39,425 bases of DNA from Oscillospiraceae bacterium (GTDB taxonomy: Bacteria > Bacillota > Clostridia > Oscillospirales > CAG-272), in the NCBI GenBank assembly GCA_015063545.1, contig SVTX01000015.1:1-39425 (forward strand). The letters run 5' to 3'. Position 1 is the stretch's first letter, and every line of letters starts with the position of its first letter. The notes below the pieces were generated by a model. The model saw only the letters and a list, made by a program, of their open reading frames with translations. It had not been told where the DNA came from and did not search any database. This document shows positions 1-22,204 of the stretch, in pieces. Made by a program: the position numbers and the translations under genes.

Positions 1-160
1 CCGCTATCGCGGTCCCCATTCCCTTGCGAGGGAAGGTGGCACGAGCCTGCGAGTGACGGATGAGTAGTCTGCGTAAAATAATAGATTGCTTGCCCTCGAT
101 TAATTATTGTATTCTACTCATCCACCGCTATCGCGGTCCCCCTTCCCTCACAAGGGAAGG
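1..160. repeat. Palindromic MITE-like intergenic repeat, copy A
   Basis: Two 36-base direct repeats (1-36 and 125-160) share the start CCGCTATCGCGG and each end in a short hairpin of the form TTCCCT..AGGGAAGG. Between them GGATGAGTAG (58-67) is the inverted complement of CTACTCATCC (114-123), so the unit folds back on itself. A related unit lies at 15146-15275. There is no open reading frame, so this looks like a non-autonomous dispersed repeat. The left boundary is cut by the window. Confidence 0.7.
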
Positions 161-186
161 CTAATTCTTAATTCTGCACTTTATGC

Positions 187-285
187 TGTTACCCCGAGCT
201 TGTCGAGGGATCTCTAAATCATTGCGGTCAAAACCTCGGAGATCTTTCGACTACGTTTGCAACACTCACTTCGCTCAAGATGACA
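187..285. repeat. Second palindromic intergenic repeat family
   Basis: This stretch begins TGTTACCCCGAGC and ends CTCAAGATGACA. It has internal inverted arms TCGAGGGATCTC (203-214) and GAGATCTTTCGA (239-250). It codes for nothing visible. The ends resemble the palindromic intergenic repeats that are common in Clostridia, but only one copy is in the window, so its repeat status rests on the inverted symmetry and general familiarity. Confidence 0.5.
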
Positions 286-321
286 AATTTCGTTGTGTCT
301 AATCATTCACCAATTTCACTC

Positions 322-350
322 TTGACATTTTCTAAAATCCATGTTAGAAT
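322..350 (+). promoter_or_regulatory. Sigma-A promoter of RNA-SLOG cassette, copy 1
   Basis: TTGACA (322-327), a 17-base spacer and TAGAAT (345-350). Transcription should start near 354-357, exactly where the conserved leader structure begins. The same -35, spacer length and -10 occur at 15289-15317, with a single spacer change. Confidence 0.85.
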
Positions 351-352
351 GA

Positions 353-580
353 AGTTGCCAAATTATTTTTATAGTTACATTTTTAAGTATATATTTTTAA
401 GTATAGGATAACTATACCTTTTTTTGAACATAATTTACACGGTGTGAATTTGACAAAATGCAGATTCTGTTCCGTGTAGATTGTGTTGAAATATATACTT
501 GAAAACATAGAAATAGTTTGGCGACTACTGGAGTCTGCGTTTTTGTGCGGCGGCTTCGGTCGTCGCACTTTTTAATTTTT
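353..580 (+). ncRNA. Candidate structured leader RNA (SLOG-associated), copy 1
   Basis: The transcript between promoter and SLOG gene folds into a compact multi-helix RNA. P1 pairs 353-372 with 507-526 (20 bp, three G-U). P2 pairs 385-391 with 494-500. P3 is a hairpin 401-406/412-417 with loop GATAA. P4 pairs 427-442 with 472-487 (16 contiguous bp). The apical region 446-467 is almost identical in both copies, and AAAATGCAGATTC (455-467) can pair with GAGTCTGCGTTTT (531-543) as a 13-bp pseudoknot. An intrinsic terminator ends it. P4 differs from copy 2 by compensatory base-pair changes, which argues for selection on structure. A 14-base tandem duplication (379-392, 393-406) lies in the P2/P3 strand. 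I match it to no known riboswitch class. It could be a cis-acting aptamer with terminator, or a free small RNA with read-through into the gene. Confidence 0.75.
545..580 (+). terminator. Intrinsic terminator between leader RNA and SLOG start, copy 1
   Basis: A 10-bp stem (545-554 with 559-568) closed by a TTCG tetraloop and followed by TTTTTAATTTTT. It lies 12 bases upstream of the SLOG start codon and only one base after the pseudoknot strand, so it would stop transcription before the gene unless overridden. Stem bases differ from copy 2 only by pairing-neutral changes (G-U to A-U, C-G to U-G). Confidence 0.85.
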
Positions 581-592
581 CGAGGTGATAAA

Positions 593-922
593 ATGAAAAT
601 CGCAATTATAGGTTCAAGAGGATTGCATGTTGAAAATTTAGAAAATTATCTCCCCGACGGTGTGACCGAGATAGTCTCGGGCGGCGCAAAGGGAATTGAT
701 ACGGACGCAGAAAACTTTGCAAATGAAAATAATATAAAAACAACTGTTTTTCTGCCCGAATATAACCGATACGGCAAAGCTGCACCAATTATGCGAAATT
801 ATCAGATAGTAGATTACGCCGATGAGGTTCTTGCCTTTTGGGACGGCAAATCAAGGGGAACAAAGAGCGTTATAGATTATTGCAAAAAGCAAGATAAGAA
901 GGTTACGGTTATTATGATATAA
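593..922 (+). CDS. Small SLOG-family (YspA/cpYpsA-like, DUF2493-like) protein, copy 1
   Basis: A 109-residue single-domain Rossmann-like protein of the SLOG superfamily. The N-terminal MKIAIIGSRG strand and loop (residues 1-10), SGGAKGID (about 29-36) and FWDGKSRGT (about 80-90) match nucleotide-binding segments of YspA/cpYpsA-related SLOG proteins. SLOG domains are thought to bind nucleotides or nucleotide-derived ligands; no reaction is assigned here. The ATG at 593 is chosen over the longer frame because GAGGTG (582-587) precedes it and upstream codons run through the terminator. It is about 92 percent identical to the copy at 15542 (9 differences in 109). It follows a structured RNA and terminator, so its expression probably depends on read-through. 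There is no transmembrane or signal segment, so it should be cytoplasmic. Confidence 0.85.
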   Translation: MKIAIIGSRGLHVENLENYLPDGVTEIVSGGAKGIDTDAENFANENNIKTTVFLPEYNRYGKAAPIMRNYQIVDYADEVLAFWDGKSRGTKSVIDYCKKQDKKVTVIMI

Positions 923-924
923 AA

Positions 925-948
925 GGGGGCAAATTGCCTCTTTTTTTT
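925..948 (+). terminator. Terminator after SLOG copy 1
   Basis: GGGGGCA (925-931) pairs with TGCCTCT (935-941) over a three-base loop and is followed by a run of T. It begins 2 bases after the SLOG stop codon and closes the cassette. Copy 2 lacks this hairpin, so the duplicated segment ends at the coding region. Confidence 0.8.
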
Positions 949-968
949 AATAATACTTATTTCCGTTC

Positions 969-997
969 TTGACATAAAAGCGACATTATTATAAAAT
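969..997 (+). promoter_or_regulatory. Promoter of the 1029 gene
   Basis: TTGACA (969-974), 17 bases, TAAAAT (992-997). Transcription would start near 1004, which excludes the longer reading frame starting at 1002 and supports the ATG at 1029. Confidence 0.75.
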
Positions 998-1028
998 AAA
1001 ATTGTATAACACCAAAAGGAGAATTTCT

Positions 1029-2174
1029 ATGAGTTATTCAACTATTGAAAAATTTAACAAGTATCACTTAATCTACAGCGCAGACGGCGCAGTGAAGGGA
1101 ACTATCAGCTACTTTGTTGACGGACAGCCTACACAGGAAGAATTTTTCCTCGCAAAGGGCGAAAATATGTCCTTTTGCAGCTTTATTGATGGATACCTTG
1201 ACGGAGTGCTTGCAGAAGGCGAAATAAGCATAGAAACAGAATTTATAGCCGATGGCTCGTTTGTTGATATAACCTCAATTGACACGACCTGTGAAAAAGT
1301 CTACGAGGGCGGTACGTATTTCTTTGAAAATGACTTTTACAAGGTCGGCGTAGAGCTTGCATGGGGCGGCGGTCTGACCGTAATAATTGATAAAAATGCC
1401 CCGGATGGGCTTGAAAACCTCTTAAATCGCTTTGACACGGGCAGACTTGTTCAGCAGTCCTACTACGGCACAAATAAGCCTCCGTTCGTCTGTGGCGAAT
1501 TTATGGGCTGCGTGTGGAGCTATAATCCCGTTCAGGGCGGCGACAGAACAAACGCAAAGAGCAAGCTCGTTGATCTTAAAATTGAGAGTGACAGAGTTTA
1601 CGTAAAATGCCGTCCGAGAGACTGGGGACATGAGGCATGGTATACTCCGTCGTATATGGAAAACACGTATATCCTTGAGGGAGACATAATACGTGTAGAC
1701 AACAAATTCACCGACTTCTCCGGCTGGGAGCACCCCTTGGCAGGTCAGGAGGTTCCCGCGTTCTATACCATAAGCTACCTTGATAATTTTTGGTTTTACG
1801 ACGGGGACAAGCCATGGCAGAACGATGAATTATCAGTCCGTCGCGACCTCATATTCTGGCCTGAAGACTGGCCGAGACACCGCTTCCCACTCCCTCAGGG
1901 AGAAAAGGAGCCTTGGTGCGCGTGGACGGATATAAATGACTGGGGTATCGGTCTTTACGTTCCTAACATTGACGGTTACGTAGGCGGCAGACACCAACAC
2001 GATGGCTCAAAAGATCCTTATTCGGGATCATGCAGTTACGTAGCTCCCATGAAGGCAATGGCTATAAAGACGTTCGTTCCTATTGAATACAGCTATCTTA
2101 TCTGCACGGGAGATCTTCAAAACATTCGTAAAAAATTTACAAGGTTAAAGGATTTCACTGAAAATAAGTTTTAA
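1029..2174 (+). CDS. Uncharacterised 381-residue protein, possible carbohydrate-active beta-sandwich
   Basis: I do not recognise a named family. The protein is rich in aromatic and acidic residues (many W, Y, D and E) and has no signal peptide or membrane segment. Recurrent patterns include AWGGGLTVIIDK (about residues 110-121), a block ENLLNRFDTGRLVQQSYYG, and NPVQGGD. These resemble galactose-mutarotase-like or carbohydrate-binding sandwich proteins, but that is an impression, not a proven match. The start at 1029 has AGGAG at 1017-1021 with 7-base spacing and a promoter at 969-997. The gene stands alone, closed by a terminator at 2186. It occupies the position where rpmH and rnpA often sit upstream of dnaA in Bacillota. 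Function is unknown; a sugar-related cytoplasmic role is a guess supported only by the aromatic composition. Confidence 0.75.
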   Translation: MSYSTIEKFNKYHLIYSADGAVKGTISYFVDGQPTQEEFFLAKGENMSFCSFIDGYLDGVLAEGEISIETEFIADGSFVDITSIDTTCEKVYEGGTYFFENDFYKVGVELAWGGGLTVIIDKNAPDGLENLLNRFDTGRLVQQSYYGTNKPPFVCGEFMGCVWSYNPVQGGDRTNAKSKLVDLKIESDRVYVKCRPRDWGHEAWYTPSYMENTYILEGDIIRVDNKFTDFSGWEHPLAGQEVPAFYTISYLDNFWFYDGDKPWQNDELSVRRDLIFWPEDWPRHRFPLPQGEKEPWCAWTDINDWGIGLYVPNIDGYVGGRHQHDGSKDPYSGSCSYVAPMKAMAIKTFVPIEYSYLICTGDLQNIRKKFTRLKDFTENKF

Positions 2175-2185
2175 TTTTAAACTTT

Positions 2186-2213
2186 AAGGCATGTATTTTT
2201 ACATGCCTTTTTA
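2186..2213 (+). terminator. Terminator upstream of dnaA
   Basis: AAGGCATGTA (2186-2195) pairs with TACATGCCTT (2200-2209) over a TTTT loop, followed by T residues. It insulates dnaA from upstream transcription. Confidence 0.85.
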
Positions 2214-2263
2214 TATTCATAAAAAATTTACATTTTTATTTTTTTATAACTTGTTTTAGGCTG

Positions 2264-2292
2264 TTTACAAACAAAAAAGTGTATGTTATAAT
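2264..2292 (+). promoter_or_regulatory. dnaA promoter
   Basis: TTTACA (2264-2269), a 17-base spacer and perfect TATAAT (2287-2292). The expected start near 2299 gives a leader of about 85 bases that contains a perfect palindrome ATCGCGCGAT (2317-2326). No clear DnaA box overlaps the promoter, so classical DnaA autorepression is not obvious here. Confidence 0.8.
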
Positions 2293-2384
2293 ATATTTAT
2301 ATTATTTATATATAGTATCGCGCGATTTTATTTTTTATAATACTTTTATGATTTATAATCAACACTTAAAGGAAAGGAAAAGCA

Positions 2385-3833
2385 ATGGACTATCTACAGG
2401 AAATAGAAGAAATTTGGGCTATGGTCAAAGAAAAGCTCAGTCAAAAAATAAGTACTACTGCCGTAAATCTTTGGTTTGGCAATTCACCCATCGTATCCTT
2501 TGAAAATAACAATCTCACCATCGCGGTAGATTCGGAATTTAAGAAAAACATAGTTTGCGAAAAATATATACCCTTGCTTGAAGAAACGTTTGAGGAATTT
2601 ATGGGATTCCATGTTTCCATAGAAATAGACGCTCTCCCGGACCCCACAACACTTGAAGAACTCGAAAGACGCATAAACGCGGCAGTTAAGCTTGCGAGTA
2701 ATCCCGACGCGTTTTCAAAAGAAAATACCGCTATTGCTTCCAAAAAGGTATTGTATGAGCTTGAGGACAGAAAAGAGCTTATGTCGGATAAAAAGACGGG
2801 TATCGGTTCAACCATGCCGTCGGTAAACTTTGAGTACACCTTTGATAACTTCATTGTAGGAAGCTCAAATAAGTTTGCTCATGCAGCCTGTTTTGCTGTA
2901 TCCGAAAATCCGGCTCAGGATTACAATCCTCTGTTTATTTACGGTCCGTCCGGACTTGGTAAAACTCACCTTCTTTACGCAGTAACGAACAAGATAAAAG
3001 AGAGAAATCCCCACACAAAGATCATTTACATAAAGGGTGAGGATTTCACAAATCAGATGATAGAGAGCCTGTCCAAAAACTCAATGGCAAAATTCAGGGA
3101 TAAATACCGCACCTGCGACGTTCTTCTGATAGACGATATTCAATTTATCGCAGGCAAGGAATCCACACAGGAAGAATTTTTCCACACATTCAACGCCCTT
3201 TTTGAAGACGGAAAACAGATAATTCTCACATCCGACCGTCCTCCCAAGGATATAAAAACGCTTGAGGACAGACTTGTCACAAGATTTGAGTGGGGACTTA
3301 TAGCGGATATCCAGCCGCCGGATCTTGAACTCAGAATAGCGATATTCAAAAATAAGATATCACAGGCAGGCATCGAGGTATCCGATGAGATAATTACCTA
3401 CCTTGCAGAAAATCTCCGTTCCCACATAAGACAGATTGAGGGCGCGGTCAAAAAGCTCGTAGCTATCCGTTTTCTTTCGGGAAGAGAAATTACTATGGAA
3501 ATAGCTAAAAACTGCATAAACGAGCTTTTGGGCGGTGAAGAACCCGTAAACGTGACTGTTGACAAAATATTCACGGCTGTGGAAAAGAGATTTGAAGTCA
3601 AAAAATCAGATCTTGTCGGAAAGTCCAGAGTAAAGGAAATAGCAAACGCAAGACATATAGCAATTTATCTTATAAGATACGTAACCGAGATGTCTTATCC
3701 AAATATAGCAAAGCTCTTTAACCGAGATCATTCCACAATAATCGCGTCCGAGGAGAGCGTTAAAAAGAAATTAAATTACGATCATTCACTTGAAGCGGTT
3801 ATAAACGATATTGTCAAGGAAGTCAAGGAATAA
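2385..3833 (+). CDS. dnaA: Chromosomal replication initiator DnaA
   Basis: The 482-residue AAA+ initiator binds DnaA boxes at oriC, melts the origin and loads the replicative helicase. Domain I (about 1-85) carries the usual helicase/regulator-interaction fold, followed by a variable acidic linker. The AAA+ domain has Walker A GPSGLGKT (187-194), Walker B LLIDDIQF (about 247-254) and a sensor region ending TRFEWGL. The C-terminal helix-turn-helix domain carries the DnaA signature around NRDHSTI (446-452). Length is slightly above the family norm of about 450. ATG 2385 has AAAGGAAAGG at 2368-2377 and a good promoter at 2264-2292. It is followed by a 461-base origin region and dnaN, the standard Bacillota arrangement. 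Confidence 0.98.
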   Translation: MDYLQEIEEIWAMVKEKLSQKISTTAVNLWFGNSPIVSFENNNLTIAVDSEFKKNIVCEKYIPLLEETFEEFMGFHVSIEIDALPDPTTLEELERRINAAVKLASNPDAFSKENTAIASKKVLYELEDRKELMSDKKTGIGSTMPSVNFEYTFDNFIVGSSNKFAHAACFAVSENPAQDYNPLFIYGPSGLGKTHLLYAVTNKIKERNPHTKIIYIKGEDFTNQMIESLSKNSMAKFRDKYRTCDVLLIDDIQFIAGKESTQEEFFHTFNALFEDGKQIILTSDRPPKDIKTLEDRLVTRFEWGLIADIQPPDLELRIAIFKNKISQAGIEVSDEIITYLAENLRSHIRQIEGAVKKLVAIRFLSGREITMEIAKNCINELLGGEEPVNVTVDKIFTAVEKRFEVKKSDLVGKSRVKEIANARHIAIYLIRYVTEMSYPNIAKLFNRDHSTIIASEESVKKKLNYDHSLEAVINDIVKEVKE

Positions 3834-4294
3834 AGTTTTTACCTAGTTTTCAACATACACAAAAGTTATAAATTTTATTTATTTTTCAATAGCTTCAGAG
3901 TTTTCAACAGGCAGTTTTTAATTTTTTATACCTGTGGAAAATCTTGAAAATTTTAAAATATAAAAAATATTCCAAAATTCAAATTAAAGCAGCGAAAATT
4001 CAAGGTATTTTTTTGAAATATCACTCAAAAAGAAAAGTTTTCCACCAATTTTAAGCATCATCCCGACAATAGAGTGTGGAAAGATTTTCTATGTTTTTAA
4101 AGATGTTTGGCTACTTTTCAACAATCAGTCCGACACTACTGCTATTACTGCTAATAATTTTATCATTCATTCACTCTCTCTTGCGCGCGAAGCGCGCCTG
4201 CGCATAAAGCGCGAAAACTTCTGCCGACAGTGGCGTAATAATCAAACAGAATTCCGTCTTTATGATTTTGTAAGCGGAAAAGAAAGGATCAAAA
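3834..4294. other. oriC: Replication origin oriC (DnaA boxes and AT-rich unwinding region)
   Basis: This 461-base gene-free stretch between dnaA and dnaN holds nonamers close to TTWTCCACA. They are TTTTCAACA at 3847-3855, 3901-3909 and 4115-4123 (+), TGTGGAAAA at 3933-3941 (-), TTTTCCACC at 4038-4046 (+) and TGTGGAAAG at 4075-4083 (-). The interval 3942-4035 is very AT-rich and is the best candidate for the DNA-unwinding element. A hairpin GCGCGC-GAA-GCGCGC at 4183-4197 lies close to dnaN, probably in its leader. The assignment rests on box density, AT content and the dnaA/dnaN position. Confidence 0.9.
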
Positions 4295-5446
4295 ATGAAG
4301 ATCACGTTTAACAGACAGCAAATAAGCAATAAGATAGCTCCCCTCATGAGCGTAGTATCATCCAAAAGCACAAATAAGGCAATAGAAGGAATACTCATAG
4401 AAGCAAAATGCCCCGATAGCTGTACTCTTACCGCATTTGACGATGAAAAGGGTATGAAAATAAGTGTTGAGTGTGAGGTTCTTGAAGAAGGCTCTTACAT
4501 AATCAACGCGCAGAAGTTTAACCAGACCTTAAAGGTAATGGACGGTGAGCTTATAAGCCTCACTGTTGACAATAAGCTCCAGGCTACTTTTGAGTGCGGA
4601 ATTTCAACTCATAAGACCGGCTCTCTCAGAGCAGAAGAATTTCCCGAAATTCCCAATCTTACAACGGAGAAGGGATTTGTAGTAAGTCAGCCCATACTTA
4701 AAAAGATGCTCTCTAAGGTTTCTTATGCTATGGGGGTAAACGATCCCAGACCTGTTCTCAACGGATGTCACATAAAGACAGAGGCAGGAAAGATAAGTGT
4801 AGTTTCTTGCGACAGCTTCAAGCTTGCTGTTTGTTCATGCCCCGCAGAAATAGAAAATATTGAAAATTCCACTAAGGGAATAGAATATTCCTTCATAGTC
4901 CCCGCAAAGTCCGTAAATGAGATAATAAAGCTTCTCTCCGATGACGAAGAGGATAAGGTTACGGTATATATGAGCTACAAGAATATGGTTCTTGCATTTA
5001 ACGATCTCATATTCTTTACAAAGCTCATTACCGGAGAGTATATAGATTATAACAGAATAATAATCAAGAACCACAAAATAGAGGTAGTTACAGATAAGTA
5101 CGATCTTATAGCTGCCCTTGAAAAGGCTTCTCTTATCACGGAGGAGAGAATTGAAAGAGCTGTTCGTTCACACGTTCGTATAGTTGCAGAGGATAATATT
5201 ATCAAGGTATCTGCAGTTTCCGCTGCGGGAAGCATTTACGACGAGGTAGAGAGTGAGCATACGGGAGATGGACTTTCTATTGCATTTAACAACAGATTCC
5301 TTCTTGACAGCGTGAGAGCTTGCTCATATGACAGAATAAAGATATCCATGACCTCCGCATTCTCAAGCATAAATATTGAGCCTGCGGATGCAGAAGAGGG
5401 AGAGAGTGAATTGTTCATGCTTCTTCCCGTAAGAACCAAGGAATAA
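4295..5446 (+). CDS. dnaN: DNA polymerase III beta subunit (sliding clamp)
   Basis: This 383-residue protein forms the dimeric ring that tethers DNA polymerase III to DNA and recruits mismatch repair and translesion partners. The three repeated clamp domains are visible, starting MKITFNRQQISNKIAP and ending with the typical C-terminal hydrophobic segment ELFMLLPVR, which forms part of the partner-binding pocket. The length matches the family (about 370-380). ATG 4295 is preceded by AGAAAGGA. The gene follows oriC and is only 3 bases from recF, so the two are co-transcribed. The S4-domain gene yaaA that normally separates dnaN and recF in Bacilli is missing. Confidence 0.97.
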   Translation: MKITFNRQQISNKIAPLMSVVSSKSTNKAIEGILIEAKCPDSCTLTAFDDEKGMKISVECEVLEEGSYIINAQKFNQTLKVMDGELISLTVDNKLQATFECGISTHKTGSLRAEEFPEIPNLTTEKGFVVSQPILKKMLSKVSYAMGVNDPRPVLNGCHIKTEAGKISVVSCDSFKLAVCSCPAEIENIENSTKGIEYSFIVPAKSVNEIIKLLSDDEEDKVTVYMSYKNMVLAFNDLIFFTKLITGEYIDYNRIIIKNHKIEVVTDKYDLIAALEKASLITEERIERAVRSHVRIVAEDNIIKVSAVSAAGSIYDEVESEHTGDGLSIAFNNRFLLDSVRACSYDRIKISMTSAFSSINIEPADAEEGESELFMLLPVRTKE

Positions 5447-5449
5447 TAG

Positions 5450-6571
5450 ATGATCTGCAAAAGGATAAGTCTTGAGAATTTTCGAAATATAGAGAAGGCT
5501 GAGCTTGAATTTTGCAACGGTACAAACATACTGCTTGGAGAAAACGCGCAGGGAAAGACAAATCTTATTGAGGCAATATATTACACCGCGCTTTGTCGGA
5601 GCTTCAGACAGGGAACGGATAAGGATCTTATCAGGTTTGGATGTGAGTATTCAAAAATTGATAATACGTATTGCGACAGTATAAGAGAAATGAATACCAG
5701 TGTTACGTTGTTTTCCGACAGAAGGCAAAAGAGAATAGAACAGAACGGACTTAAAATATCAAAAATGTCTGATATGGTGGGCGCGTTCAAGGTTGTACTG
5801 TTTTGTCCCGAGCATCTTTCAATAGTCAAAGAAGGCCCTTCTATGAGGCGGAGCTTTCTTGACGTGGCAATATCACAGATAAGACCTCTCTATATGAAGT
5901 CTCTTCAGAGATATCAGACGATACTCAAAGAGAGAAATTCTCTCATAAAAAAGGCGCAGGAAGACAGAGAGACATTTGATTTGACGGTTGACGTCTGGTC
6001 TGAACAGCTTGCAGTCGAGGCGGCGAAAATAACTGCGTACAGAGTTGAATATCTGTGTGAGATAAGAAAATACGTCTCGGATATATTTTCGGATATGACG
6101 GGAAAGCGCGAAGAACCTGAGTTTTCATATATTTCATCGTGCAAGCTACCTGAGGAGGAGCTGTGCGACGTAAAAAAAGTTGAGGATAGCTTCCGTGAAC
6201 TTTATTTTACGCGACACGACCGAGAAATCGGCGCAGAAGCGACTTTGTGGGGTACGCACAAGGACGATATAGAAATAAAATTAAACGGCAACAGCGCGCG
6301 AATTTTCTGTTCTCAGGGACAGCAAAGGTCCCTGTCGCTCGCTATGAAGCTTTCAGAGGGAGAAATAATCAAGAAAAACTGTGGCGGTGAGTACCCGGTA
6401 TTTTTACTTGACGACGTTCTGTCAGAGCTTGACGGCGCGAGAAGAAGATATCTCATCTCAAATCTGACGGACAAGCAGGTTATAATGACAACTTGTGAGG
6501 CTACGGATATATCCGGAGCTAACGTAATTGGTGTAAAAGAGGGAAAGTATTTTGAAAATACTTTACAGTGA
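5450..6571 (+). CDS. recF: DNA replication and repair protein RecF
   Basis: The 373-residue SMC-like ABC ATPase acts with RecO and RecR to load RecA at single-strand gaps. Walker A GENAQGKTN lies near residues 28-36, the signature region SQGQQRSLSLAMKL near 285-300, and Walker B FLLDDVLSELD near 318-328 (counts approximate). Length agrees with the family (about 360-375). ATG 5450 starts three bases after the dnaN stop, so expression is coupled to dnaN. The C-terminus meets the next gene with little or no gap: an alternative TTG start for that gene at 6552 would overlap recF by 20 bases. Confidence 0.97.
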   Translation: MICKRISLENFRNIEKAELEFCNGTNILLGENAQGKTNLIEAIYYTALCRSFRQGTDKDLIRFGCEYSKIDNTYCDSIREMNTSVTLFSDRRQKRIEQNGLKISKMSDMVGAFKVVLFCPEHLSIVKEGPSMRRSFLDVAISQIRPLYMKSLQRYQTILKERNSLIKKAQEDRETFDLTVDVWSEQLAVEAAKITAYRVEYLCEIRKYVSDIFSDMTGKREEPEFSYISSCKLPEEELCDVKKVEDSFRELYFTRHDREIGAEATLWGTHKDDIEIKLNGNSARIFCSQGQQRSLSLAMKLSEGEIIKKNCGGEYPVFLLDDVLSELDGARRRYLISNLTDKQVIMTTCEATDISGANVIGVKEGKYFENTLQ

Positions 6572-6575
6572 GAAA

Positions 6576-7361
6576 ATGATTACTGAAAATACAACAATCA
6601 AAATAATGTCCTTTAATATGCTTTTTGGAGGATATGAGGGCACGGATTTTTCCTTGGAAAAAAGAAAAGAAAAAATAATTGATGTTATAAAAAAAGAAAA
6701 GCCCGATATAATAGGCTGCCAGGAAGTTACAGACAGTACGCGTGATTGGCTTGAGAGCTTGCTTTTTGATGAATATTCAGTTATTGGTGTCGGAAGAAAT
6801 TCAGACTGCCGCGGTGAAGGCTGTCCCGTATTTTATAATAAAAGCAAATTTGCTTTGATTTCCTTTGATACGTTTTGGCTGTCCGACGATCCCCTTTTAC
6901 CGGGAAGCTTTGCATCAAATACAGGACAAAGTCCTTGTCCGAGATTGGCTCATATTTTATATTTGAGATGCTATGACGACGGATGTCCGATTATATTTTT
7001 GAATACCCATCTTGATAATTTTACCGAGGATTGCAGAAAATTTGAGCTTGAAATAATAGAAAAAAAACTTGGAGATATTCATGCAAATACATGCTGTATA
7101 ATGACGGGAGACTTAAATCTTGAACCTGACGCCGATTATTTCAAGGAGTTTTTGAAAAATCTTGATTGTATCGGATTAAAAGATGCAACCTCAAATATCA
7201 GCGGAACATTTCATAATTTCGGCAGACTTGAAAAACCTATGAAAATTGACTATATTCTGACTAATGCCCCGGTTATTTCTTCTCAGATAGTTGAGGATAA
7301 GTGTGATGGCGGAATATGGTATTCCGATCACTATGCCGTAACATCATTGATCAAAGTGTGA
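6576..7361 (+). CDS. Endonuclease/exonuclease/phosphatase (EEP) family protein
   Basis: This is a metal-dependent phosphodiesterase-fold protein of about 261 residues. The EEP motifs occur in order: SFNM near the N-terminus, a metal-binding glutamate in GCQEV, NTHLD, GDLN, IDYIL and the terminal YSDHY. All catalytic positions are therefore kept. The family includes apurinic nucleases, sphingomyelinases and inositol phosphatases; without close relatives the substrate cannot be named. There is no signal peptide, so it is probably cytoplasmic. ATG 6576 is used, but TTG 6552 has a better ribosome site (AGAGGGA at 6538-6544) and would add eight residues. It sits between recF and remB, which are normally adjacent, so it looks like an insertion into a conserved operon, possibly co-opted for repair. 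Confidence 0.88.
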   Translation: MITENTTIKIMSFNMLFGGYEGTDFSLEKRKEKIIDVIKKEKPDIIGCQEVTDSTRDWLESLLFDEYSVIGVGRNSDCRGEGCPVFYNKSKFALISFDTFWLSDDPLLPGSFASNTGQSPCPRLAHILYLRCYDDGCPIIFLNTHLDNFTEDCRKFELEIIEKKLGDIHANTCCIMTGDLNLEPDADYFKEFLKNLDCIGLKDATSNISGTFHNFGRLEKPMKIDYILTNAPVISSQIVEDKCDGGIWYSDHYAVTSLIKV

Positions 7362-7398
7362 TTTTAGAAATCAGGAAAATTAATTCAGGAGTAAAAAT

Positions 7399-7653
7399 AT
7401 GTTTCTCCACGCAGGTAACAACAAAAATATAAGAGAAAAAGATATAATAGGTATATTCGACGCGGACAACGCTACGATATCATCTGTGACGAGAAAATAT
7501 CTCTCCGAGGCTGAAAGAGCCAATCTTGTCATATCCGCAAAGGACGAGATACCGAAATCCTTTATTCTCTATAAAGAAAACGGAAAATATATGATCTGTT
7601 TTTCCCAGATATCCACACAGGCTCTTCTGGGCAGAACGGTTTATGGAATATAA
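7399..7653 (+). CDS. remB: Extracellular matrix regulator RemB (YaaB, DUF370 family)
   Basis: This 84-residue protein matches the RemA/RemB family in size, in the opening MFLHAGNNKNI (canonically MFLHLG with a following basic segment) and in its position just before gyrB. RemB in Bacillus subtilis affects biofilm matrix gene expression, and its paralogue RemA is a DNA-binding activator. ATG 7399 has AGGAG at 7387-7391. It lies in the origin operon between the EEP gene and gyrB. The target genes in this organism are unknown. Confidence 0.88.
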   Translation: MFLHAGNNKNIREKDIIGIFDADNATISSVTRKYLSEAERANLVISAKDEIPKSFILYKENGKYMICFSQISTQALLGRTVYGI

Positions 7654-7682
7654 AATTGATAACAGATATGTGAAATAAATGA

Positions 7683-9647
<1,965 letters not shown>

Positions 9648-9654
9648 TTTTGAT

Positions 9655-9847
9655 TGTTGAAAACTCGGTGAAAATTTTAAAAAACTTCAACGTTTTATAC
9701 AAGCTATCAAAAACTTGAAGCTATGTTTTAAATCATTGAAAAACAAAGATAAAATTATACCTTTTAAAAGTTTTCAACATAGCACGTATAATAAAAAAGA
9801 CAGTTTTCCACATCCTGTTAAAAAGTATGTGGAAAACCTGTGCAAAA
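9655..9847. promoter_or_regulatory. Second DnaA-box cluster between gyrB and mreC
   Basis: The 213-base gap 9648-9860 carries four exact TTTTCMACA-type nonamers: TGTTGAAAA (9655-9663, -), TTTTCAACA (9771-9779, +), TTTTCCACA (9804-9812, +) and TGTGGAAAA (9828-9836, -). A one-mismatch box TGTGCAAAA follows at 9839-9847. The region is very AT-rich. A TATAAT at 9787-9792 with a weak -35 sits among the boxes and may drive mreC-mreD-gyrA. The cluster could be part of a split origin, a DnaA-titrating site or a DnaA-controlled promoter. Confidence 0.75.
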
Positions 9848-9860
9848 CTAAAAAAGGGGG

Positions 9861-10721
9861 ATGAATTTGAAATTTTTTAAAAATAAATTTTTTATAAGCA
9901 TCCTCTGTATAGCAGTAGCTCTGACAATTTTTTCGGCTGTTTTTTCAATCATGGGAGTAGGTAATACGGCAAAGAATTTTATAGGTAAAATTTGCGCACC
10001 CATTGAATCCGGAATATGGAAAATGAAGGAGTCTCTTAAGGGATATTCGTTGTATTTTTCGGATATGGACAGCTTGATAGAAGAAAATAAACAGCTTCAA
10101 AAAGAAGTGGATGAGCTAAACGACAAGCTCAATGATTCACAAGTCATAAAGGAAGAAAACGACAGGCTCCGTGACTATATATCCGTAAAGGACGCTCATA
10201 AAGATTTCAAGTTTACCGAGGCGCTTATAATAGGCTCCGAGACGGACAATTACATGTCGATAATAAAGATAAACAAGGGTACGGATAACGGACTCAAAAT
10301 CAATATGCCGGTTATAGTTTCCACAGGCCTTGTGGGAAGTATATGCGAGGTTGGACCAAACTGGGCAAATATCCGTGTTATATGCGAATCGGCTTCTTCT
10401 GTCGGAGGTTACATATCAAGAAACGGAGAGACAGGAATTGTTCAGGGAGATATAACCTATAAGGACAAGGGAATATGTAAGCTGACCTATCTTGACATGG
10501 AATCCGATATAGAAATAGGAGATCTGGTATATACAAGCGGAAGCGGAAGCGTTTATCCGGGAGGACTTTTTATAGGAAAAGTGGCATCGGTTGAAATAGA
10601 CGAATATACCCGTTCAAAGGTCGCCACAGTTGAATGTGCCGTGGATTTTAATAAATTAAGCTACGTTATGGTAATAACGGACTTTAATTCCGATATTTCG
10701 GAGGGCGGCACAGATGAATAA
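9861..10721 (+). CDS. mreC: Rod shape-determining protein MreC
   Basis: The 286-residue membrane protein is a scaffold of the elongasome that links MreB filaments to peptidoglycan synthases. A single N-terminal membrane helix (about residues 10-31) is followed by a coiled coil (about 60-105, with EENKQLQKEVDELNDKL) and the MreC beta-domain, including GSETDNYMSIIKINKGTDNG and STGLVGSI. The annotated ATG 9861 is hard against the GGGGG ribosome site. TTG 9867, two codons later, has normal spacing (6 bases) and may be the true start. It overlaps mreD by 8 bases. No mreB is in the window, and a location between gyrB and gyrA is not the usual mreBCD arrangement. Confidence 0.93.
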   Translation: MNLKFFKNKFFISILCIAVALTIFSAVFSIMGVGNTAKNFIGKICAPIESGIWKMKESLKGYSLYFSDMDSLIEENKQLQKEVDELNDKLNDSQVIKEENDRLRDYISVKDAHKDFKFTEALIIGSETDNYMSIIKINKGTDNGLKINMPVIVSTGLVGSICEVGPNWANIRVICESASSVGGYISRNGETGIVQGDITYKDKGICKLTYLDMESDIEIGDLVYTSGSGSVYPGGLFIGKVASVEIDEYTRSKVATVECAVDFNKLSYVMVITDFNSDISEGGTDE

Positions 10722-11256
10722 CAGAAAAAACAGCGGCAGGTACGAGAAAAGATTTGATAAGATATTGCTTATCCGCTGTGTGATATTTTCGGTAATTATC
10801 ATCATATCGTCTCTGTTTGAGGTATCTTTTTTCAAGGTGTTTGGAAAAACTCCCGCCGTAGTTCTTTGTATAGTTTCCGCCGTAGGATTTATATGCGGTG
10901 AAAAGGCAGGCGGTATTTGCGGCATTGTCGGAGGATTTTTCATAGATGCCGTGGGAAGTGTGGGAATTTCAATTTCTCCCGTGTTTTATATGCTTATGGG
11001 CTACGGATGCGGATATTTGCTGAAAGTCTTTCTCAGACAGAATTTTCTGTCATTCATCATATATTCCGTAGCGGTAGGAGTTCTTAATTCTTGCGTAACG
11101 CTCGGACATTTCGCATTTCATACAAAATCGCTTAATATAGTACAAATATTTAAAGATACGCTTTTGCCGGAATTTGCGGCATTCATGATGTTTGTTCCGA
11201 TAGTATATTTTATGTGCTTTGGGATAGACAAGCTCATAAATAAAATCAAAAAATAA
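10714..11256 (+). CDS. mreD: Rod shape-determining protein MreD
   Basis: This 180-residue polytopic membrane protein has about five hydrophobic segments, starting with RCVIFSVIIIISSLFEVSFF near residues 21-40. It contains the MreD-like GGICGIVGGFFIDAVGS stretch, in which glycines and an acidic residue sit in a membrane helix. It acts with MreC in lateral wall synthesis. The start overlaps the end of mreC by 8 bases, which implies translational coupling. Sequence conservation in MreD is low, so the call relies on size, topology and the neighbouring mreC. Confidence 0.88.
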   Translation: MNNRKNSGRYEKRFDKILLIRCVIFSVIIIISSLFEVSFFKVFGKTPAVVLCIVSAVGFICGEKAGGICGIVGGFFIDAVGSVGISISPVFYMLMGYGCGYLLKVFLRQNFLSFIIYSVAVGVLNSCVTLGHFAFHTKSLNIVQIFKDTLLPEFAAFMMFVPIVYFMCFGIDKLINKIKK

Positions 11257-11292
11257 ACAATGTATTATCTGTCAAAGAGAGGATAGTTAAAA

Positions 11293-13821
11293 ATGGACAA
11301 GAACACACACGACAGCGACGTGTACTTATTCGAAAATCAAAAAATAGTTGATATCAACATGGAGAAGGAAGTAAAGAAATCCTTTATTGAGTACTCCATG
11401 TCTGTAATCATGTCCAGAGCTCTGCCCGATGTTCGCGACGGCATGAAGCCCGGACAGAGACGTGTTATCTATGCTATGTATGAGGATCACCTCACACATG
11501 ATAAGCCCTTCCGAAAGTCTGCAACGACCGTAGGTAACGTGCTTGGTAGATATCATCCTCACGGAGACAGCTCTGTTTACGGAACTATGGTAAGAATGGC
11601 GCAGCCCTTCTCACTCCGTTATACCCTTATAGAGGGACACGGTAACTTCGGTTCTGTTGACGGAGACCCCCCGGCAGCTTACCGTTATACAGAGGCAAGA
11701 CTTGACAAAATTGCCGACGAGATGACTCGCGATCTTGAAAAAGAGGTAGTTGAATATCAGCCTAACTTTGATAACAGACTCCGCGAGCCTACCGTTCTTC
11801 CGTCACGTTTTCCCAACTTCCTTGTAAACGGATCGGTGGGTATTGCCGTAGGTATGGCTACGAACGTTCCCCCTCACAATCTCGGTGAGGTCATTGACGG
11901 AACTATATACAGAATGGAAAATCCCGACTGTTCCGTAATGGATCTTATGGAATTCATAAAAGGCCCTGATTTTCCTACTTACGGAACTATTCACGGCACA
12001 CAGGGAATAATCGACGCTTACACGACAGGTAAGGGCCGTATTTCCGTTCGCGCAAAGGCTGAGATAGACGAAGAAAAGAGAACTATCATAATTACCGAAA
12101 TTCCTTACATGGTAAATAAATCCATGCTTTGTGAGGCTATTGCAGATCTTGTTAAGGATAAGAGAATAGAGGGAATTTCAGGTCTTCGTGATGAATCCGG
12201 CAGAGCAGGTATGAGAATTGTTATCGAGTATAAGCGCGACGCTAACGGACAGATAATTCTCAACCAGCTTTACAAATATACTCAGCTTCAGGATACCTGC
12301 GCTATAAATATGCTTGCGGTTGTAGGACAGGAGCCTAAGGTTCTTTCGCTTCCTCAGATACTTGACTATTATATTGAGCATCAGGAGTCGGTTATTCGCA
12401 GAAGAACGGAATTTGACCTTAACAAGGCAAAGGCAAGGGCTCACATATTTGAGGGCTATAAGATAGCTTTGGATAATATAGACGAGATAGTTCACATAAT
12501 GAAAACTTCTCCCTCTATTCCCGTATCAAAGCAGACCTTGATTGATAGATTCGGTCTTACCGACATTCAGTCTCAGGCTATCGTTGAAATGACTCTCGGC
12601 CGTCTCACAGGTATGGAAAGACAGAAGATACAGGATGAGCTTGACAGACTTCACGCGCTTATCGCAGAGCTTGAAGGAATACTTGCCGACGACGGAAAGA
12701 TCCGCGAGATAATCAAGAATGAAATGCTTGAGATCAAAGAAAAGTATGCCGATGACAGAAGAACAAATATTGAGATAGCCGAGGACGAAATTGACCTTGA
12801 AGACCTCATTGAAAAGCACAACTGTGTAATTACAATGACACGCGCGGGATACATCAAGCGTTTGCCTGCGGATACATATTCCGCACAGAGACGCGGAGGT
12901 AAGGGAATTACCGCCATGACGACGCGTGACGAGGACTTTATAGAAAAGGTATCTGCCGTATTCTCACACTCTTTGCTTATGTTCTTTACGAACAAGGGAC
13001 GTGTACAGACGATGAAGGCATTCAGAATTCCCGAAGCGTCAAGAACGTCCAAGGGCTCTAATATCGTAAACATGCTTCAGCTTTCCGACGGTGAGAAGGT
13101 AACTTCCATGATAAGCGTAAACGAGTTTGGCGAAGGCGAGTATCTTACGATGGTTACCCGCAAGGGCGTTATCAAAAAGACACTTCTGTCCGAGTACGAG
13201 TATCAGCGTAAGGGCGGTAAGATCGCTATAAATCTTGACGATGATGATGAGCTTCTGTTCGTTACAAAGACAGACGGAAACGCGCAGCTCATTATCGCAA
13301 CTCACGGAGGAAGCGCCGTAAGATTTGACGAGGCGCAGGTAAGACCTATGGGAAGAACCGCGCGCGGCGTTCGCGGAATAAATCTCCGTGATGACGATTA
13401 CGTTATAGGTGTTGCACAGGTAGAGGAAGGAAAGAAGCTTCTCACAATCACCGAAAACGGCTACGGAAAGAGAACGGAATACGATGACTTCAGACTTATG
13501 AAGCACCGCGGCGGTTTTGGTGTAACATGTCATAACGTGACCGAAAAGACAGGTCCTGTTGCTGGAATACTCTCTGTTGACGACAATGACGATATTATGG
13601 TTATAACAAATGAGGGTATAATCATAAGAACACATGCAAATGAAATATCCACGTACTCAAGAACTGCATCCGGAGTAATTACCATGCGTTTGCTTGAAGG
13701 TCAGTCTGTTGCTAACATAACTAAAGTTGCAAGAGAAGAAAATGAGGATGCGGATACAGAGGATATTTTGGAAGAGGCTGAGGGAACTGTTTTGGAAGAA
13801 TCCGTTACAGAGGAAAACTGA
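11293..13821 (+). CDS. gyrA: DNA gyrase subunit A
   Basis: The 842-residue breakage-reunion subunit of gyrase. The catalytic tyrosine lies in AYRYTEARL (Tyr132, equivalent to Escherichia coli Tyr122). The quinolone-resistance region reads [17 protein letters not shown] (from residue 88): Ser93 matches E. coli Ser83, but the position equivalent to Asp87 is Gly97. The coiled-coil tower, the GyrA-box-like QRRGGKG near residues 535-541 and the six-bladed C-terminal beta-pinwheel are present, ending in a strongly acidic tail typical of GyrA. ATG 11293 follows AGAGAGGA with short spacing. It is downstream of mreD by 36 bases and probably shares its transcript. Confidence 0.98.
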
Positions 13822-13839
13822 TTTTTAAAGGAATAATTT

Positions 13840-14487
13840 ATGATAATTATAGATTCCGTAAAAAAACATAAAAAACTGATTTCTATAATTCTTTGTATTG
13901 CCATACTTTTGAGTGTTGGTGGAATATTTGCATATTGCACCTTGAATAAAGCGCCCGAATTATCCGAGGTAAAGGACAGATATATTTTCCTTATAGAAAG
14001 ATCAAAGCAAATAAATGAGGTTCTTTTCGGCGCGGGATTGCCTGTTTACGAGAGGGACGGAGATCTTGATGAGGCTTTTGGAATATATATAGGCTCATCA
14101 AATCTCGGATACCGTAAGGTAATGCCTAACGCACAGTTTTTTATGATAGATCAGATGAAGCGAGAGGCGCAGCAGGTGTATTCATCGGGATATTGCGACG
14201 CGTTGTTTCAAAGCTGCTTTGACGGTGTTTTGGTTGACGGCAAAACTCTTATAGAATATACCGAAATAGCAGGTGAGCTTCACCAGAATATGTCAAGAGA
14301 GGTACTCTCTAAAAACGAGAAGATCTACCTTTATTCCACAATGGAGATAGTAAGGCCTTCAAACAAGGAATATGTAAACGTTGAGATAGACGCGTATCCT
14401 ATAAATAATCCTTCTGCTGTGAAAAGGGAGACTCTTTCGTTTTCCTTTGAGGAAGGTAACTGGTATCTTGATACTCCAACGTATTAA
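13840..14487 (+). CDS. Membrane-anchored protein of unknown function
   Basis: I do not recognise a family. The 215-residue product has a short basic N-terminus and one hydrophobic helix (about residues 13-34), then a mostly polar region predicted outside the membrane. The helix lacks a clear signal-peptidase site or lipobox, so an uncleaved anchor is likely. The extracellular part has no obvious catalytic motif. ATG 13840 has AAAGGAA at 13827-13833. It begins 18 bases after gyrA and 11 bases before the next membrane-protein gene, so it is probably the tail of the origin operon. Confidence 0.8.
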   Translation: MIIIDSVKKHKKLISIILCIAILLSVGGIFAYCTLNKAPELSEVKDRYIFLIERSKQINEVLFGAGLPVYERDGDLDEAFGIYIGSSNLGYRKVMPNAQFFMIDQMKREAQQVYSSGYCDALFQSCFDGVLVDGKTLIEYTEIAGELHQNMSREVLSKNEKIYLYSTMEIVRPSNKEYVNVEIDAYPINNPSAVKRETLSFSFEEGNWYLDTPTY

Positions 14488-15145: not shown

Positions 15146-15275
15146 CTTCACCTGGAGGGGATTGCACAGACTGCGCTAATGCGGAGCGAAGCTGACGGAT
15201 GAGGTGTGGACATTCAATTTACATCATACACCTCATCACCCGCTACCGCGGGAGCTTCCCCTCAAGGGGAAGCCT
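15146..15275. repeat. Palindromic MITE-like intergenic repeat, copy B
   Basis: GATGAGGTGT (15198-15207) is the exact inverted complement of ACACCTCATC (15228-15237). The outer parts, GACGGATGAG on the left and CCGCTACCGCGGG followed by a TTCCCC..GGGGAA hairpin on the right, correspond to copy A at 1-160. It codes for nothing and lies directly upstream of the second RNA-SLOG cassette, as copy A does for the first. Confidence 0.7.
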
Positions 15276-15288
15276 TCTAAATTCACTC

Positions 15289-15317
15289 TTGACATTTTCT
15301 AAAATCCGTGTTAGAAT
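15289..15317 (+). promoter_or_regulatory. Promoter of RNA-SLOG cassette, copy 2
   Basis: TTGACA (15289-15294), 17 bases, TAGAAT (15312-15317), nearly identical to 322-350. Sequence identity between the two cassettes begins a few bases before this -35. Confidence 0.85.
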
Positions 15318-15319
15318 GA

Positions 15320-15529
15320 AACTGCCAACTATTTTAACAAAATATTTGAGGGTATCAGGATAACTGTACCTTTTTTGGCATACAATTTAACAAGTTGAAT
15401 TTGATAAAATGCAGATTCTAAACTTGTTGATTGTATGTCTTGTACCCATTTCGACGTTAAAATAGTTTGGCGACTATCGGAGTCTGCGTTTTTGTGCGAT
15501 GGCTTCGGTCGTCGCACTTTTTAATTTTT
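15320..15529 (+). ncRNA. Candidate structured leader RNA (SLOG-associated), copy 2
   Basis: The architecture is that of the RNA at 353-580. P1 pairs 15324-15338 with 15456-15471 (15 bp, one bulged T). P2 pairs GGGTA (15350-15354) with TACCC (15443-15447) and competes with the P3 hairpin 15351-15358/15364-15370, whose loop is again GATAA. P4 pairs 15377-15394 with 15423-15439 (17 bp, one bulge). AAAATGCAGATTC (15406-15418) is identical to copy 1 and can pair with GAGTCTGCGTTTT (15480-15492). In P4 at least four base pairs differ from copy 1 on both strands with pairing kept. The P2 and P3 details are less certain than P1, P4 and the pseudoknot. Confidence 0.75.
15494..15529 (+). terminator. 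Intrinsic terminator before SLOG start, copy 2
   Basis: A 10-bp stem (15494-15503 with 15508-15517) with a TTCG loop and TTTTTAATTTTT tail, 12 bases before the SLOG ATG. Same design and spacing as the terminator at 545-580. Confidence 0.85.
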
Positions 15530-15541
15530 GAGGTAAACAAA

Positions 15542-15871
15542 ATGAAAATTGCAATTATCGGCTCGCGTGGACTACATGTTGAAAATCTTGAAATTTATCT
15601 CCCCGACGGTGTGACCGAGATAGTTTCGGGCGGTGCAAAGGGCATTGACACAGACGCGGAAAGCTTTGCGAACAAAAACAACATAAAGATAACTGTTTTT
15701 CTGCCCGAATATAACAGATACGGCAGAGGCGCGCCAATTATGCGAAATTATCAGATAGTTGACTATTCAGACGAAGTCATCGCTTTTTGGGACGGAAAAT
15801 CAAGAGGAACAAAGAGCGTTATAGATTATTGCAAAAAGCAAGATAAGAAGGTTACGGTTATTACAATATAG
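15542..15871 (+). CDS. Small SLOG-family (YspA/cpYpsA-like) protein, copy 2
   Basis: A 109-residue paralogue of the protein at 593, with nine substitutions, all outside GSRG (7-10), SGGAKGID (29-36) and FWDGKSRGT. Conservation of every putative ligand-binding segment suggests both copies are functional. ATG 15542 has GAGGT at 15530-15534, directly after the leader terminator. Unlike copy 1 it has no hairpin of its own after the stop codon. The next terminator, at 15918, is shared with the convergent carB gene. Function is unknown; binding of a nucleotide-like ligand is expected from the SLOG fold. Confidence 0.85.
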   Translation: MKIAIIGSRGLHVENLEIYLPDGVTEIVSGGAKGIDTDAESFANKNNIKITVFLPEYNRYGRGAPIMRNYQIVDYSDEVIAFWDGKSRGTKSVIDYCKKQDKKVTVITI

Positions 15872-21301: not shown

Positions 21302-22204
21302 TTACTTTACAAGACTTGCAAGTATTGCCTTTTGAGCATGCAGACGGTTTTCGGTCTGGTCGAATATCATTTTGCTGTGGGCTTCAAGTACGTCTGCGCT
21401 TATCTCTTCTCCTCTGGTTGCAGGCAGACAGTGGAGAACAAGAGCATCGGGAGAAGCCAAGGATAACAGCTCTGAGTTCAACGTATATCCTTCAAAGATT
21501 TTTGCTCTCGCCGCCGCATCGTATTTTTCGCTGAGCGTGTGCCATATTCCGGTATAAACAACATCAGCGCCGTCTATTGCTGCTTTGGGATCACTTGTCA
21601 GAGTGAGGGTGTTGCTGTCAAGTCCGAGCTTTATTACGTCGTCGGCAGGGAAAAATCCTTCGGGGCATGCCATGCTGATTTGTATTCCCAGCTTTGCGCA
21701 AGCCGAAATGAGAGAGTTTGCAACGTTATTTCCGCTTCCTATATAAGCTATTTTCAAACCTCTGAAGCTTATTTTATATTCGCGTATAGTCATAAGGTCA
21801 CCTATGACCTGACAGGGATGCCATTCATCTGTAAGTCCGTTTATTACGGGAATATCCGAATGAGATGCATATTCCTCAAGCGCCGCCTGAGAGGGAGTAC
21901 GGATCATTACAGCGTCGAGAAAACGAGAGAGAACTCTCGCCGTATCTGCAACCGGCTCACCCTTGTTTATCTGGAGAGCCTCGGTAGGAAGAAACATTGC
22001 GTTTCCGCCAAGCTGATACATACCTACCTCAAACGATACTCTCGTGCGAGTGCTGACCTCGTCAAATATCATACCAAGAGTTTTCCCCTCAAGAAGCTTG
22101 TGTGGAATATTATTTTTATGTTCGTATTTCAACTGGTCTGCGGTGTTGAGAAGGTCGAGAATATCCGCCCTCGTGCAGTCCTTTATACTTAAAAAATGCT
22201 TCAT
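21302..22204 (-). CDS. argF: Divergent ornithine carbamoyltransferase-like protein (ArgF)
   Basis: This 300-residue protein of the aspartate/ornithine carbamoyltransferase family would transfer the carbamoyl group to an amine. The carbamoyl-phosphate half is canonical: STRTR, MIRT, HPCQ. The catalytic HCLP and C-terminal ENRLHAQKA are kept. The amino-acid side is altered. Canonical DVWxSMG reads GIWHTLS (Gly219 for Asp; Thr223-Leu224-Ser225 for SMG), and these residues hold the alpha-amino group of ornithine in the E. coli enzyme. It may therefore act on a different or modified substrate, or be weak. A canonical paralogue is at 28713. It ends 15 bases before argD in the same operon; carA has a separate promoter. 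At 300 residues it is slightly short for OTC (310-335). Confidence 0.85.
   Translation of the reverse strand: MKHFLSIKDCTRADILDLLNTADQLKYEHKNNIPHKLLEGKTLGMIFDEVSTRTRVSFEVGMYQLGGNAMFLPTEALQINKGEPVADTARVLSRFLDAVMIRTPSQAALEEYASHSDIPVINGLTDEWHPCQVIGDLMTIREYKISFRGLKIAYIGSGNNVANSLISACAKLGIQISMACPEGFFPADDVIKLGLDSNTLTLTSDPKAAIDGADVVYTGIWHTLSEKYDAAARAKIFEGYTLNSELLSLASPDALVLHCLPATRGEEISADVLEAHSKMIFDQTENRLHAQKAILASLVK

Follow-up and report, generated by a model that had tools for sequence, protein, structure and literature searches.

A candidate riboswitch-like transcription attenuator in the leaders of diverse genes of Clostridia

The 39,425-nucleotide stretch of DNA that we analysed (the window; contig SVTX01000015.1 of an Oscillospiraceae bacterium) carries two copies of a compact cassette. 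The original prediction described a promoter, a leader RNA, a terminator and a short SLOG open reading frame (ORF) in succession, and we find this arrangement at positions 322-922, with a second copy at 15289-15871. The copies agree at 155 of 198 aligned positions in the RNA and at 284 of 330 in the gene. Against the Pfam family YAcAr, the gene of copy 1 scores 27.8 bits, slightly below the cut-off of 28.2. The features of both copies, with the basis for each, are as follows (R1 is a covariance model introduced below).

322..350, + strand: promoter of copy 1, with TTGACA at 322-327, a 17-nt spacer and TAGAAT at 345-350 (sequence)
357..573, + strand: leader RNA of copy 1, long subtype (A), 217 nt (fold z -10.9; R1 150.8 bits)
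357..372, + strand: P1 5' strand of copy 1, at the predicted transcript start (MFE fold; P1 tests)
427..442, + strand: P4 5' strand of copy 1 (MFE fold)
446..467, + strand: P4 apex of copy 1, GAATTTG / ACAAAATG / CAGATTC, whose 3' half is the candidate pseudoknot strand (sequence)
455..468, + strand: candidate pseudoknot strand a of copy 1, AAAATGCAGATTCT, the complement of 530-543 (sequence)
472..487, + strand: P4 3' strand of copy 1 (MFE fold)
507..522, + strand: P1 3' strand of copy 1, ending in GTTTGGC at 516-522 (MFE fold; P1 tests)
525..533, + strand: putative antiterminator 5' strand of copy 1, CTACTGGAG, sharing GGAG with pseudoknot strand b (swap tests)
530..544, + strand: candidate pseudoknot strand b of copy 1, within the tail, GGAGTCTGCGTTTTT (complementarity, swap tests)
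545..573, + strand: intrinsic terminator of copy 1, with a TTCG loop and U-run (sequence; family covariation)
554..562, + strand: putative antiterminator 3' strand of copy 1, CTTCGGTCG, within the terminator hairpin, forming 8 of 9 pairs (sequence by eye; family tests)
593..922, + strand: short SLOG-fold protein gene behind copy 1, 109 aa (Pfam YAcAr E 2.3e-6)
15289..15317, + strand: promoter of copy 2 (sequence)
15324..15522, + strand: leader RNA of copy 2, long subtype (A), 199 nt (fold z -7.8; R1 148.7 bits)
15377..15394, + strand: P4 5' strand of copy 2 (MFE fold)
15406..15419, + strand: candidate pseudoknot strand a of copy 2, AAAATGCAGATTCT, the same letters as in copy 1 (sequence)
15423..15439, + strand: P4 3' strand of copy 2 (MFE fold)
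15474..15482, + strand: putative antiterminator 5' strand of copy 2, CTATCGGAG, partner at 15503-15511 (sequence by eye; family tests)
15479..15493, + strand: candidate pseudoknot strand b of copy 2 (sequence)
15494..15522, + strand: intrinsic terminator of copy 2 (sequence; MFE fold)
15542..15871, + strand: SLOG-fold gene of copy 2, 109 aa (Pfam YAcAr E 7.1e-6, below the cut-off)

The end of leader copy 1 lies about 1.8 kb upstream of dnaA, and the block from dnaA to gyrA, which both leader copies flank, resembles a replication origin region (window 1-14000); dnaA and gyrA were assigned by Pfam, and dnaN, recF and gyrB were picked out of the ORF list by eye. Short palindromic repeats (CCGCTATCGCGG..., CCTTCCCTCACAAGGGAAGG) are found 5' of both leader copies (window 1-60, 121-165 and 15230-15275), and similar ones occur 5' of leaders L003 and L004; these are perhaps a dispersed repeat element. 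Beyond copy 2, one unbroken 1352-aa ORF (15959-20017, minus strand) contains carbamoyl-phosphate synthase large-chain and then diaminopimelate epimerase domains by Pfam, an apparent CarB-DapF fusion for which an assembly error is possible. Carbamoyltransferase-like genes at 21302-22204 (minus strand) and 28713-29699 (plus strand), recognised by eye in the ORF list, look like the boundaries of a putative arginine biosynthesis cluster.

Both leaders fold with high predicted stability: copy 1 reaches -89 kcal/mol (z -10.9) and copy 2 -72.8 kcal/mol (z -7.8), and none of 200 shuffles equalled either value. The P4 arm is formed by AACATAATTTACACGG and CCGTGTAGATTGTGTT in copy 1 and by GGCATACAATTTAACAAG and CTTGTTGATTGTATGTC in copy 2. 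When the copies are aligned at AATTTA and double changes are scored by eye, four neighbouring P4 pairs differ on both strands with pairing retained, as claimed: G-C to A-T, C-G to A-T, A-T to C-G and C-G to A-T. P1 had been put at 20 and 15 bp; the second figure stood, with 15 pairs in the MFE outer helix of copy 2 up to the first interruption, whereas that of copy 1 has 19 pairs (16 pairs, a one-base bulge and 3 pairs). The folds relative to shuffles and the P4 double changes together bear out the proposed selection on RNA structure. The predicted product is a terminated transcript of about 200-217 nt.

The element extends well beyond the window. We used two covariance models, R1 (built from 53 sequences) and R2, for a short form (built from 44 sequences). 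R1 matched 15 distinct places in the source genome at E up to 2.5e-4, four weaker matches being opposite-strand shadows, and R2 added one place (C45), giving about 16 copies in a 1.8-Mb genome; this count includes three that failed the P1 test (L192, L305 and L196, the last truncated at a contig end). Because only 8-10 candidates per genome were scored in the large samples, under strict filters, the genome counts there are lower bounds: 91 of 295 genomes of the order were positive with R1, and 71 (R1) and 80 (R2) of 291 genomes of the class, the source genome counted in each case. Across a phylum sample of 299 genomes, including some of the same class, the source genome was the sole positive with either model. 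A blastn search with the RNA matched 19 of 98 neighbourhood genomes, the source genome among them. An exact 29-base tail pattern occurred in at least 117 stretches in named genomes and had no match in viral contigs; among the matches listed, its carriers are mainly uncultured Clostridia from animal guts, one named carrier being Pumilibacter intestinalis CLA-AA-M10 (class Clostridia).

Two sets of members were assembled for analysis: (i) a first set, in which 137 of 144 motif hits were kept and 131 of these used to count apex-tail pairs; and (ii) a second set of 275 sequences, of which 261 were kept, representing 253 distinct cores. Sequences dropped from the 275 either failed the P1 test (L192, L196, the first copy at L264, and L305) or were identical to others or shorter than 140 nt. 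The loci of 98 of the 253 members were picked by the exact tail pattern, so tail conservation in those members is partly a selection effect. The remaining members came from blastn or the models, which reward tail sequence, not pairing of the tail with the apex or the terminator loop.

The original prediction could name no RNA class with this fold, and none emerged from Rfam. At the gathering score the window matched no family of Rfam 15, and in 28 further loci the only matches were two tRNAs. Low-threshold scans of three members gave only matches far under the gathering score. In window 300-960, at E up to 10, the top match was SraG at the gene end (24 bits, threshold 50), and the best within the copy 1 leader was MIR6140 (21 bits, threshold 140). 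A known Rfam class is accordingly rejected for the window and the members scanned, and with 253 non-redundant members the element is not confined to the two copies first noticed. In the literature searched, including parts of PMC11109978 and PMC8040213 (supplementary tables lay outside the search), no description of the leader RNA was found.

We divided the 253 members purely by length, at 184 nt, into 203 long (A; 187-243 nt) and 50 short (B; 149-184 nt) forms. Members share one order of parts: promoter, P1, often AAUA, a P4 arm with an A-rich apex, the P1 3' strand, tail, terminator and gene; most long members have a further side hairpin. The AATA string adjoining P1 (within bases 9-28) occurs in 179 of the 203 long members and in 39 of the 50 short ones, as raw counts without a chance control. 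A promoter (-10 and -35 boxes each matching at least 4 of 6 positions, spacing 15-19) was recognised in 176 of 251 members versus 56 of 251 shuffled sequences, and in 152 members the -10 box ends 6 nt upstream of the start of the RNA and P1. At the 3' end, 131 of the 137 first-set members carry a terminator pattern.

In alignments A2 and A7 every cell of the main P1 helix is paired (100%), and a column shows as many as four pair types. In the first set, complementarity to the 3' strand had helped to place the P1 5' start, and this makes its pair counts lean upward; we therefore repeated the search without prior placement. This unbiased search (145 nt, 12-nt 3' strand) found 12 of 12 pairs in 179 of 209 tail hits, compared with 1 of 209 shuffled windows, and the own strand outscored swapped strands in 198 of 209. 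A tree-aware null model, in which substitutions were redistributed on the tree (60 replicates; 179 distinct rows from 211 long members), left exactly five column pairs at E<0.05: three belong to P1 and the other two to the terminator. Among these 179 rows, no column pair of the apex-tail or antiterminator helices was significant; both sets of strands show little variation in long members. Default MAFFT/RNAalifold on 137 sequences recovered little other than P1, because the variable arms misalign.

The tail has two candidate partners. The first is the 3' strand of the P4 apex: of 131 members examined, 95 allow all 15 pairs, 34 allow 14 and 2 allow 13. When partners were swapped, with donors limited to sequences with a different tail and with statistics that ignore kinship, the mean advantage of the own tail was 2.7 kcal/mol for the short form, where it paired better in 43 of 50 members (p 2e-10), and 0.6 kcal/mol for the long form, where it did so in 152 of 203 (p 4e-11). 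The lengths of the apex A-run and the tail U-run agree in part: among the 203 long members, 99 have 5A/6U, 37 have 5A/5U, 34 have 4A/5U and one has 4A/6U, with other combinations in 18 and no motif in 14. When substitution events are counted on the tree, apex-tail pairing survives 135 of 178, versus 89 of 205 for the local apex hairpin, a comparison in which wobble pairing eases the apex-tail figure.

The second partner is the terminator loop region: the tail stretch CUAUCGGAG is also complementary to CUUCGGUAG, and the own partner was better than swapped ones in 175 of 203 long and 43 of 50 short members. This tail-terminator helix is incompatible with the terminator, and it shares GGAG with the apex-tail pairing. 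Two source-genome members, L197 and L307, diverge from the family in apex, tail and terminator loop together, and both retain the two pairings. Their own apex-tail pairing outscores swapped ones, and their own tail-terminator pairing outscores 39 of 49 (L197) and 35 of 49 (L307) swaps; the antiterminator gain over swaps is clear in L197 and small in L307 (-11.0 vs -10.2). Computed stabilities are -14.6 kcal/mol for the terminator and -13.3 kcal/mol for the tail with a truncated terminator, a value that may include other folds. Alternatives this close are what a switch requires, and with such similar stabilities the outcome would depend on kinetics or on a signal. The support for the apex-tail and tail-terminator pairings comes from partner-swap tests, run-length agreement and concerted changes, and the mutually exclusive complementarities, which persist across the family, are those expected of an expression platform.

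The leaders are positioned before genes. A strict rule counted only ORFs of 45 aa or more that begin with ATG, have an RBS core and start no further than 130 nt away. By this rule a same-strand ORF follows 176 of 239 members; for ORFs pointing away on the other flank the figure is 23 of 153, and for randomly chosen points it is 123 of 1195. The 63 members that fail the rule make up about a quarter. A lenient picker found an ORF in 130 of 137 members, an RBS before 124 of the 130, and a start within 130 nt in 220 of 253, but it preferred ATG and RBS and its counts lean upward, so the strict rule provides the controlled count; all gene calls are heuristic. We conclude that the element is placed as a 5' leader of same-strand genes.

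These genes are diverse, including lipoproteins, BspA repeat proteins, acyl-CoA ligases, AbrB and SLOG proteins; those behind the copies found by blastn encode lipoproteins, zinc-ribbon proteins, BspA repeats, an ABC ATPase and others. Our Pfam census covered 121 of 130 ORFs in the first set and 99 of 135 in the second, with duplicates and doubtful ORFs omitted by choice. Among the first 25 families listed per set, LRR_5 is carried by 13 ORFs in each (of 121 and of 99), AMP-binding by 5 of the 121, and MazE/AbrB-type domains by 4 of 121 and 3 of 99; zinc ribbons, Cu_amine_oxidN1, CHAP, an EcoRI-type methylase and SLOG were also listed. No single pathway emerges from these 121 and 99 ORFs, only a bias toward export. 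Of the unique downstream proteins, 218 start no more than 130 nt away; 118 of these have an N-terminal hydrophobic segment versus 58 of 278 ORFs in the background (p 2e-14), and 42 versus 12 of 278 have a lipobox (p 1e-7). The background consists of heuristic ORFs from 80 named loci and export was called by a hydrophobicity rule, not a trained predictor. A PADLOC scan of 99 downstream proteins matched 15 families, each found with only one or two members, without a defence theme. The downstream genes suggest control of the cell envelope and of accessory genes.

Among the 245 members with an ORF, 9 have a gene for a small cysteine-rich protein (CLGNGE...ECCCDEC) downstream of the RNA (L030, L037, L127, L182, L204 and L253, and L190, L191 and L307 in the source genome).

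On balance, the element is probably an mRNA 5' leader acting as a riboswitch-type transcription attenuator, and our best reading is a new class of such riboswitch-like leaders. Transcription would start at the first base of P1 or nearby, and P1 with the P4 arm would form the sensor domain. Pairing of the tail with the P4 apex, in its 3' half (a pseudoknot of 13-15 pairs), would hide the antiterminator strand; the terminator would then form and transcription would stop at about 200 nt. If the apex is instead kept as a local hairpin, the tail could pair with the terminator loop and 5' half, allowing readthrough into the gene. A signal bound to the sensor domain would shift the balance between the two folds. 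We infer that the folds form and switch, that the pseudoknot is the off state and that a small molecule, not a protein, serves as the signal. A fuller version of this reading, which we hold tentatively and at somewhat less than even confidence, is a riboswitch class, occurring in long and short forms, whose members sense a signalling molecule not yet recognised; its proposed four-strand relay (apex hairpin, pseudoknot, antiterminator, terminator) would control a wide range of accessory and surface-lipoprotein genes in gut Clostridia.

The same attenuator might answer to an RNA-binding protein, an RNA polymerase factor, or temperature or growth state, not a small ligand. Functionally mixed genes with an exported-protein bias are closer to what a global physiological signal would control than to the targets of one metabolite, and the AATA string adjoining P1 could be a protein site; however, the domain is longer and more elaborate than simple protein-binding attenuators generally are, and we regard such a signal as rather unlikely.

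Less likely again is a free-standing terminated small RNA, with the downstream gene read by leaky readthrough or present by chance. The promoter-like 5' end and the frequent terminator pattern would suit such an RNA, but a same-strand ORF lies close downstream far more often than in controls, and the better complementarity between a tail and its own terminator would be needless for a free RNA.

We also considered a mobile DNA hairpin element whose folding matters at the DNA level. Genomes carry multiple copies, and in two of five cases of tandem leaders (L254 and L245) promoter, RNA and gene were locally duplicated and the first gene has decayed. The other three tandem cases show no clear remnant. 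Tandem leaders had also been considered as support for regulation, and were set aside. Against a mobile element stand the non-random orientation and gene distance, the presence of promoter and terminator, and the divergence of the window copies, and we consider it very improbable. Window copy 1 had no match to phage and plasmid records at E 0.01, and two tail patterns had no exact match in viral contigs; a phage or plasmid element is not supported at the sensitivities used.

The suggested link between the RNA and SLOG ligand binding did not survive a wider survey. The model finds the RNA upstream of 2 of 31 SLOG loci (29 from other genomes, 2 from the source genome), namely L055 in another genome and L011 in the source genome, and conversely 6 of 245 downstream ORFs contain a rough SLOG motif. 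Blastn had matched the RNA in 19 genomes, and 9 of them lack a SLOG match at E up to 0.001. The source genome has six SLOG matches, the sixth cut by a contig end, and the RNA precedes all five that have upstream DNA. Although every testable SLOG gene of the source genome thus carries the leader, a SLOG-specific RNA, regulated for example by the SLOG protein or its ligand, is largely refuted by occurrence at 1 of 29 loci elsewhere and by the scarcity of SLOG motifs downstream, and we give it hardly any credence.

Found in roughly one in four sampled genomes of the class, and in many copies in several of these, such a leader would count as a common regulatory RNA among gut Clostridia. It offers practical handles: a ligand to seek, a testable switch and candidate regulon members in otherwise unannotated genomes.

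Several known systems resemble this leader. Attenuators based on upstream ORFs, such as ilvB-II, likewise have a leader with a terminator and an antiterminator, as described in PMC11109978. The sole recurrent AUG of the present RNA, at the apex, is not conserved, unlike what an upstream ORF would need: its U is replaced by C in 35 of 179 aligned long members, and we rejected an attenuator based on it. T-box leaders also choose between terminator and antiterminator and are multi-copy in Clostridia, whereas the present leader reaches no Rfam family at the gathering score and its genes are not mainly amino acid genes. The c-di-GMP riboswitches of Clostridia occur in several copies per genome before surface-protein genes; models of both classes were presumably part of the Rfam set scanned, and the present leader reached no family there. 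Transcription-terminating riboswitches share the 5' leader position, a closing P1, a terminator just 5' of the RBS and a mutually exclusive antiterminator. The present leader differs from them in that the members scanned have no Rfam match, in that its genes lack a common pathway, which is unusual for a metabolite riboswitch, and in that a candidate apex-tail pseudoknot would set the choice between the two folds.
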